Source: Cycloclasticus sp. symbiont of Bathymodiolus heckerae (lineage in GTDB: Bacteria > Pseudomonadota > Gammaproteobacteria > Methylococcales > Cycloclasticaceae). From it: DNA of 64,000 nt. This document shows, piece by piece, positions 6,125 through 45,757 of this stretch. The translations under genes and the position numbers were made by a program. The DNA lies in NCBI GenBank assembly GCA_002101235.1, contig LWTL01000118.1:1-64000 (forward strand). The letters run 5' to 3'. Under the pieces are notes generated by a model. That model made no database searches. It saw only the letters and a list, made by a program, of their open reading frames with translations, and had not been told where the DNA came from. Position 1 is the stretch's first letter. Each line of letters starts with the position of its first letter.

Positions 6125-8270
<2,146 letters not shown>

Positions 8271-37108: not shown

Positions 37109-37134
37109 TTTTTTCTTTCCTCTATTGTTGTTTG

Positions 37135-37178
37135 TGGTCACAGACCATAAGTTTCATCGAATAGGAAGCAAGCCTTCC
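37135..37178. repeat. intercistronic two-hairpin element, copy 1 (tolB-pal)
   Basis: tggtcacagaccataagtttcatcgaataggaagcaagccttcc; 33/35 identical to copy 2 across the shared core. Confidence 0.8.
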
Positions 37179-37181
37179 TAC

Positions 37182-38486
37182 TTATCTCGCTTTATAAGGT
37201 GACCACGCGGGCTCTCTTACTTCTCCACCTTGCAGCCGAAGTTTTTGTCGAACTTTGCCATCCGATGATACCGCAGCCAATATGGATTTCAAGCCATCAT
37301 TGGTAGAATATAGAATCATACTGCCATTTGGGGCATAACTAGGTGACTCATCTAAACGTCCATCCGTTAAAATATTCGTAAACCCTGTCTTTAAGTCTAG
37401 CGTCGCAATACGATACTGCCCATTCACTCGATGCACCATCGTAATGTTTTTTCCATCCGGTGAATAACTTGCTCTAGCATTATAAGAACCTTCAAAGGTT
37501 ACTCGCCCTGCTTGCCCACCATTAGCGGAAATCTTATATATTTGCGGCTTGCCACCTCGGTCTGAGGTAAAGATAATTTGACGTCCATCTGGCGACCAGT
37601 CTGGCTCTGTGTCAATAGCATAACTTCTTGTTAAACGGCGAAATGAGCGAGTAATCACATTATAAATATAAATATCCGCACTTCCGTCCTTCGAAAGCGT
37701 TAACGCTAACTGACTACCATCTGGCGACCAAGACGGCGCTCCATTAATACCTTTAAACGAACGCAACTTTTCACGTTGACCCGTCCTTAATGTTTGTGTG
37801 TAAATAGAAGAGCGTCTTCCTTCATAAGACACATAAGAAAGTTTATCGCCGCGAGGTGACCACGACGGTGACATCAACGGCTCTGAAGACGTAACGATCG
37901 TTTTTGCTCCGTAACCGTCTGCATCCGCCACCTGAATTTTATATTCTGTTTTACCATTCGCTTCACGCATTGACGTGATATATGCCATGCGTGTACTAAA
38001 TGCACCTTTTTGGCCGGTGAGTTTTTCATAGATCAAATCGCTAATTCGATGCGCTACACCTCTAAGACCCGAGCGACTCGCAGGAATACTAAAACCTGTT
38101 AATTGCTCCCCCTTGTAGACGTCAAACAATTGAAACTGAACAAGCAACATACCATTAGCATCTGGCACAATCTTACCAATCACAAGGTTGTCTTGCCCTA
38201 AAGCCTGCCAATTGCGAAAATTAACTTGCTCTGCCGTAGACGGCTTGCTCAACATATCTAAACGTGACAAGGACTTAAAACGGCCACTACGCGCTAAATC
38301 ATCGCTCACCACTTGCGCAATATCAACCGGTAAGCCACCCACAATTTGCACACTCGAAAATGGCACAACGGTGATGGGCTGCGCAGAAGATATACCCTGT
38401 GTTATTTCAATTTTTAATGCCGCACTGAACGCGCTAAAACTGAACATAATGCTTAAAATTAACGCGCTTTTAATTACTCTTTGCAT
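37182..38486 (-). CDS. tolB: Tol-Pal system beta-propeller protein TolB
   Basis: WSPDG repeats: PSWSPRGDKLSYVSYE, PDWSPDGRQIIFTSDRGGKPQIY. Confidence 0.97.
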   Translation of the reverse strand: MQRVIKSALILSIMFSFSAFSAALKIEITQGISSAQPITVVPFSSVQIVGGLPVDIAQVVSDDLARSGRFKSLSRLDMLSKPSTAEQVNFRNWQALGQDNLVIGKIVPDANGMLLVQFQLFDVYKGEQLTGFSIPASRSGLRGVAHRISDLIYEKLTGQKGAFSTRMAYITSMREANGKTEYKIQVADADGYGAKTIVTSSEPLMSPSWSPRGDKLSYVSYEGRRSSIYTQTLRTGQREKLRSFKGINGAPSWSPDGSQLALTLSKDGSADIYIYNVITRSFRRLTRSYAIDTEPDWSPDGRQIIFTSDRGGKPQIYKISANGGQAGRVTFEGSYNARASYSPDGKNITMVHRVNGQYRIATLDLKTGFTNILTDGRLDESPSYAPNGSMILYSTNDGLKSILAAVSSDGKVRQKLRLQGGEVREPAWSPYKAR

Positions 38487-45389: not shown

Positions 45390-45410
45390 TTATCTAAAAT
45401 TCTTTTGTTA

Positions 45411-45456
45411 TGGTCACAGACCATAAGTTTCATTGAATGGGAAGCTCAACGCTTCC
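45411..45456. repeat. intercistronic two-hairpin element, copy 2 (groES-groEL)
   Basis: tggtcacagaccataagtttcattgaatgggaagctcaacgcttcc. Confidence 0.8.
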
Positions 45457-45469
45457 AATTAATTCAGCT

Positions 45470-45757
45470 TTATTCAACAATCGCAATGATGTCGTCTTCA
45501 CGCATCACCAATAATTCGTCGCCGTCTACTTCAACTTCTGTACCAGAGTATTTACCGAACAATACGTTATCGCCCACTTTTACAGTCATTGGTTGTAAAT
45601 CGCCTTTGCTGTTTGTTGCGCCATTGCCTACTGCAAGAATTTCGCCACGACTTGGTTTTTCTTTAGCTGAATCTGGAAGCACGATGCCGCCTGCGCTTAC
45701 TGCTTCTTCTTCAACGCGTTTAATAATAACGCGATCGCTTAGTGGACGTAAATTCAT
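45470..45757 (-). CDS. groS: co-chaperonin GroES
   Basis: [40 protein letters not shown]; start at 45757. Confidence 0.98.

Follow-up and report, generated by a model that had tools for sequence, protein, structure and literature searches.

We describe here a short, gene-less, hairpin-forming element that inserts at TAA and has been mobile over evolutionary time in Cycloclasticus and in other bacteria. Based on its resemblance to the recombination sites of integron cassettes and on the integron integrases that accompany it, we consider it probable (roughly 0.6) that this element is an attC-like mini-cassette of 57-70 nt which an integron integrase has spread as a REP-like repeat.

Structure and spread of the element

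Two copies lie in the window (the whole 64-kb stretch of Cycloclasticus symbiont DNA analysed here), one in the tolB-pal spacer and one in the groES-groEL spacer, and pattern, repeat and R2 covariance-model searches identified these as its only close full copies. A first-pass annotation of the same DNA had pointed out a near-identical pair of sequences at these places, and both its positions and its letters were exact: 33 of 35 nucleotides are identical between 37135-37169 and 45411-45445 (plus-strand coordinates), and the match stretches to 38 nt at 92% identity in the repeat search. The mRNA sense of both copies is the minus strand, in which the two hairpins that had been proposed are indeed predicted for each (z = -2.2 and -3.4). 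A reversed control pattern had no match in the Cycloclasticus genome, and no Rfam family matched the element above the gathering score or at a loose threshold, in agreement with the annotation. The window holds one Rfam match at 818-985 of the minus strand, to a group-II-D1D4-3 intron domain (82 bits). The extent of the element and the place of the stop codons had to be revised, because the full repeat is longer than the 35-nt match and includes the upstream arm TAAAGCTGAATTAA, and the upstream stop codons, which had been placed outside it, are part of it (Table 1). At tolB, the reading frame runs 12 nt into the element, which thus supplies the final sense codons (Lys-Ala-Arg) as well as the stop.

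Table 1. Coordinates of the element copies in the window and of solitary integron integrase genes
Feature	Position	Strand	Evidence
Complete element, tolB-pal copy	37130..37196	minus	R2 covariance model 55.8 bits, E 1.2e-8; pattern and repeat searches
V hairpin (variable stem), tolB-pal copy	37161..37181	minus	fold; family covariation
P hairpin (TGGTC TGT GACCA), tolB-pal copy	37135..37147	minus	fold; P-stem covariation
tolB stop TAA, supplied by the element (nt 13-15)	37182..37184	minus	ORF list, sequence, element position
Complete element, groES-groEL copy	45406..45474	minus	R2 71.9 bits, E 8.5e-12; empty sites in relatives
V hairpin, groES-groEL copy	45440..45456	minus	fold
P hairpin, groES-groEL copy	45408..45426	minus	fold
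groES stop TAA, the insertion site (element nt 3-5)	45470..45472	minus	ORF list; filled/empty site comparison
Solitary intI, own genome (G000:C117)	L418:7165-8190	minus	intact gene
Solitary intI, G008	L421:7044-8066		intact gene

The unit of 57-70 nt reads TAA↓AGCYGARTTAA, variable hairpin V, TTCAAYGARACTTAT, hairpin P and ATAA↓ (arrows mark junctions), and units often stand in direct tandem. Across 105 distinct copies, standard pairs fill 91.6% of pair cells, and 16 of 19 pairs have changed on both sides. Covariation scores 0.374 (shuffles 0.174) in the alignment of these copies, which is model-fitted and leans that way, and 0.294 (shuffles 0.176) in a smaller MAFFT alignment. Both stems covary, and the preservation of a stem despite sequence change beside a conserved linker, which had been noticed in the first two copies, therefore holds across the family. 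A 4x4 internal loop (CUGA/GAAA) contains a lone covarying pair, U-A in 71 copies and C-G in 22 (mutual information 0.48), which in the exact-pattern cross-taxon set is found as 44 TA, 19 CG, 1 TG and 0 CA. Wobble pairs are strand-biased (G.T 99 vs A.C 51, with one P pair being G.T in 77 copies and A.C in none), and because G.T exceeds A.C we take the sense strand to be the one whose fold is kept. The V stem carries a conserved unpaired C bulge, moved by one position in a subset (ACC/GAGT). The consensus of the 105 copies has no GTAG/CGTC tag at the hairpin foot and no terminal inverted repeats (5' end AGCYGA versus the complement of the 3' end TACCC). A hammerhead ribozyme, suggested by the CUGA..GAAA likeness, was rejected since the CUGANGA core is absent, as was a box C/D or K-turn motif, which would need a three-base bulge.

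Rather than a two-copy duplication, we found a large family. The core pattern matched exactly at a third place in this genome and also picked up copies in several congeners and in other families. The covariance-model search of the genome and its relatives, which the first-pass annotation had recommended, was run with two models, R1 (19 copies) and R2 (108 matches, no attC among them). With R1, whose per-genome numbers are lower bounds, there are at least about 12 copies in this Cycloclasticus genome and matches in 18/18 genomes of the genus (from at least 1 to at least 42 per genome), many of them in direct tandem with a period of 54-63 nt. Of 311 genomes of the order searched with R2, 33 carry the element; they belong to families f1, f7 and f8. 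By exact pattern, it is present in Cycloclasticus, Methylobacter oryzae and other Methylococcales and, among distant taxa, in Fibrobacteria, Desulfobacterota and the unplaced bacterium BMS3Bbin09. In one Methylobacter genome (G110), a 43-mer matched 207 times with up to 3 mismatches and the right end 240 times, against no match for a control pattern. Because each taxon has its own V sequence, the families have multiplied separately. Viral contigs and plasmids gave no element match, and we found no description of the repeat in the open-access literature.

Three side observations concern these copies. The 54-bp tandems of the G110 arrays (L227 and others) are open in an antisense frame and are read as a repeat protein, KGHKFRLSRQAAQLSFIA, which makes them either a pitfall for annotation or raw material for new coding sequence. 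The Desulfobacterota copies (L262, L275, L285) have V sequences of Methylobacter type, which suggests either recent cross-phylum transfer or bin contamination. Finally, many copies in the drafts G006, G010 and G002 are located about 100 nt or less from a contig end; arrays therefore probably break assemblies, leaving copy numbers underestimated.

Resemblance to attC sites and candidate mobilisers

The likeness to attC was checked on the bottom strands of real plasmid integrons. The V half matches the folded attC bottom strand (CTGAATTAAGC..GCTTsAATGAA), with its bulge at the extrahelical base of attC. Real attC bottom strands read ATCTAACGCCTGAATTAAGCCG..CGGCTTGAATGAATTGTTAGAT and the element TATAAAG-CTGAATTAAGCGG..CCGCTTCAATGAAACTTAT; when plasmid attC (TAAC-GC-CTGAATTAAGC..GCTTGAATGAA) is aligned with the element (TAAA-G-CTGAATTAAGC..GCTTCAATGAA), the conserved unpaired C falls exactly at the extrahelical G. 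The attC crossover occurs on the bottom strand between nucleotides 1 and 2 of GTTRRRY, that is AA↓C (PMC12901181), and the element boundary TAA↓A coincides with it in the alignment. When R2 was run on 15 kb, about 6 of the 13 best weak matches were attC bottom strands, single sites scoring a weak 8-11 bits, and a pattern made of the two arms and a 4-bp inner stem retrieved 5 attC bottom strands, while 60 shuffled sets yielded no match. An imperfect one-strand hairpin with a variable tip, as attested by covariation and wobble asymmetry, and an extrahelical base in the L box (the unpaired C) are further attC traits of the element. The canonical R boxes RYYYAAC/GTTRRRY are absent, with TAAAG/CTTAT (CTTA) in place of TAAC/GTTA; nothing in attC corresponds to the P hairpin; and the attC sites of Methylobacter itself differ in sequence from the element. 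As the R-box core deviates and recombination by IntI is only proposed, we do not file the element as an attC site.

Compared with an integron attC site or gene-less cassette, the element thus shares the folded bottom strand, the L-box-like stem with one bulge, the variable tip, arms nearly identical to those of class-1-type attC, the AA↓N junction, head-to-tail arrays and an integron integrase in the genome. It differs in its R-box core, its small size, its second palindrome and its scatter over the chromosome instead of an array by intI, where the gene-less cassettes of Vibrio superintegrons sit in arrays (PMC11014356). Integration at degenerate genomic sites is also a property of cassettes that leave the integron for attG sites (Loot et al. 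2024, cited in PMC12901181); as presented there, those are ordinary cassettes, unlike the one mini-element multiplied here to 10-200+ copies.

The integrase family TIGR02249 scores above its curated cut-off in 28 of 37 element-holding records and in 0 of 14 control genomes, a comparison in which congeners are non-independent and the controls give no base rate for matched element-free genomes. An intI gene is present in all 6 distant taxa carrying the element (G317 and G029, the same genome, were counted once). The IntI of the symbiont's own genome reaches 441 bits with TIGR02249, its best solved relative being IntI4 (PDB 2a3v). The Cycloclasticus intI loci have ordinary chromosomal surroundings (In0-like), with no recognisable attC array, cassette or element alongside, and none of the intI loci examined has an element array in cassette position beside intI/attI. 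In BMS3Bbin09, one element lies 50 nt past the intI stop codon, and in G029 one copy is about 2.5 kb from intI. Five genomes (G016, G023, G116, G123 and G124) have the element with intI fragments only or no intI, and most records without a passing intI are under 81% complete or hold intI fragments; where intI is absent, its loss would have followed the spread of the element. Just upstream of the solitary intI of the complete genome G008, we also observed a 587-bp perfect direct duplication (L421:3914-4500 and 6358-6944).

Could the element instead be a non-autonomous DNA element spread by some other enzyme, its attC likeness being convergent? Hairpins and insertion bounded by TAA would also be compatible with other recombinases, and across taxa the elements have no recurrent mobile-element gene family as neighbour (the one match is the element array translated as a repeat ORF). 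We nevertheless regard this explanation as unlikely, since the attC match is right in register, strand, bulge position and cleavage point, and since intI co-occurs with the element in distant taxa. ERIC-type MITEs are likewise short, non-coding and dispersed in intergenic and transcribed regions, but the element differs from them in having no terminal inverted repeats.

Somewhat less likely still is a REP-type element moved on single-stranded DNA by a RAYT/Y1 (HUH) transposase. The first-pass annotation had listed a REP-like repeat among its possibilities, and this is right in kind, for the copies are many, dispersed and in both orientations. High copy number, intergenic position, hairpins and tandems, together with Y1 genes in 15 of the 18 genus genomes, would fit such mobilisation, and REP/BIME/REPIN repeats are also short, intergenic, hairpin-forming and numerous (PMC3733652, PMC8266576), with GTAG REP ends that often supply a stop codon as well (PMC3733652). 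The element, however, lacks the GTAG or CGTC tag, has two different hairpins in a TAA-bounded unit and has no linked RAYT. When Y1 loci from two genera and one further family were scanned with the covariance model, a copy within about 1.5 kb was present at only two of those examined (in G002 and G008), and the element was near none of another 30 Y1 loci, from 10 genomes. In the Methylobacter genome that exceeds 200 copies, the only Y1 gene is truncated and has no copy beside it. G011, with 23 matches, gave no Y1 hit, and G009 and G014, with two Y1 genes each, gave 2 matches each. No cognate RAYT flanked by copies was found at the examined loci. RAYT/Y1 mobilisation is thus not supported.

Insertion sites and effects on operons

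Comparison of empty and filled sites revealed a clean insertion of about 62 bp at TAA. In the groES-groEL spacer, the filled site equals the empty site plus AGCTG..CCATAA after the TAA stop; the element is intact there in 2 of 15 readable species (G000, the symbiont's own genome, and G002), degenerate in G005 and missing from the remaining readable species. The atpG-atpD spacer is filled in G000, G001, G005 (three in tandem), G006, G009 and G013, holds a diverged copy or remnant in G017, G008 and G004, and is empty in G007, G012, G014, G015 and G016. On a four-gene tree, presence at both spacers is patchy, and some V sequences are shared by descent and lost elsewhere. Most arrays (89 of 96) begin with TAA, and 19 of the 96 start exactly at an upstream stop codon, compared with 163 of 2877 background TAAs (p = 3e-6, with related species non-independent). 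In Methylobacter, the flank is (A/T)TAA↓N, A or T preceding TAA in 92%.

Orientation differs between the two genera, with 37 sense and 13 antisense copies at co-directional sites in Cycloclasticus (n=50) and no bias in Methylobacter (13 same/same, 12 opp/opp). Scattered copies without bias, the observation that was to speak against a role in particular operons, largely describe Methylobacter, while Cycloclasticus keeps a moderate sense bias and a preference for stop codons. Other copies are found in divergent regions and in antisense between aceB and aceA; the latter (L008, L014, L017, L118) occur in several species and two families and overlap or abut the aceB end.

The covarying RNA-like fold with its conserved G-U pair, the sense bias in Cycloclasticus and the recurrence of atpG-atpD copies in several species might point to a conserved cis-acting RNA for the mRNA processing or translation of operon second genes, but patchy orthologous sites with clean empty ones, antisense copies, the unbiased Methylobacter and many unrelated gene contexts leave this quite improbable. 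The coming and going of copies at orthologous sites also makes conserved control of groEL or pal by the element unlikely, and the specific control of translation or stability that had been proposed for these two genes is not supported; the interpretation of the first-pass annotation is, as a whole, partly supported. Cis effects on mRNA in individual operons are possible as a by-product, and those on groEL or pal would be minor.

Proposed mechanism and its significance

Returning to the attC-like mini-cassette, we propose the following model. The element would be a non-coding mobile cassette, comparable to an integron cassette reduced to its recombination site. Its sense strand would fold in an attC-like manner (R-like arm, internal loop containing tandem G.A plus the single covarying Watson-Crick pair, bulged L-like stem, variable tip), with the small palindrome P and TAA closing the unit. 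An enzyme of the integron-integrase type, a tyrosine recombinase whose gene lies elsewhere in the genome, would recombine this folded strand with genomic W-TAA↓N and set the unit between two copies of TAA. A circle would serve as the intermediate, its joint being expected as GGGTATAA↓AGCTGA. Because the unit itself ends in TAA, head-to-tail arrays would follow, and insertion at a TAA stop, which spares the upstream gene and the downstream ribosome-binding site, would explain why the element is tolerated in operon spacers.

On balance, we lean, if only slightly, towards the more general proposition that integron integrases spread gene-less attC-like cassettes chromosome-wide, giving rise, in several phyla, to REP-like families that can exceed 200 copies. 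Standard attC finders that use GTTRRRY as their anchor are expected to overlook such sites. If our model is true, a repeat family without a mobiliser would gain one and solitary integron integrases would gain a role: chromosomal intI genes that stand alone, with no array, would then be drivers of dispersed repeats instead of broken integrons. There would also be a route by which attC-type sites, the landing pads of cassettes, reach the operon spacers of essential genes, and integrons and REP-like repeats, two fields that have been kept apart, would become linked.
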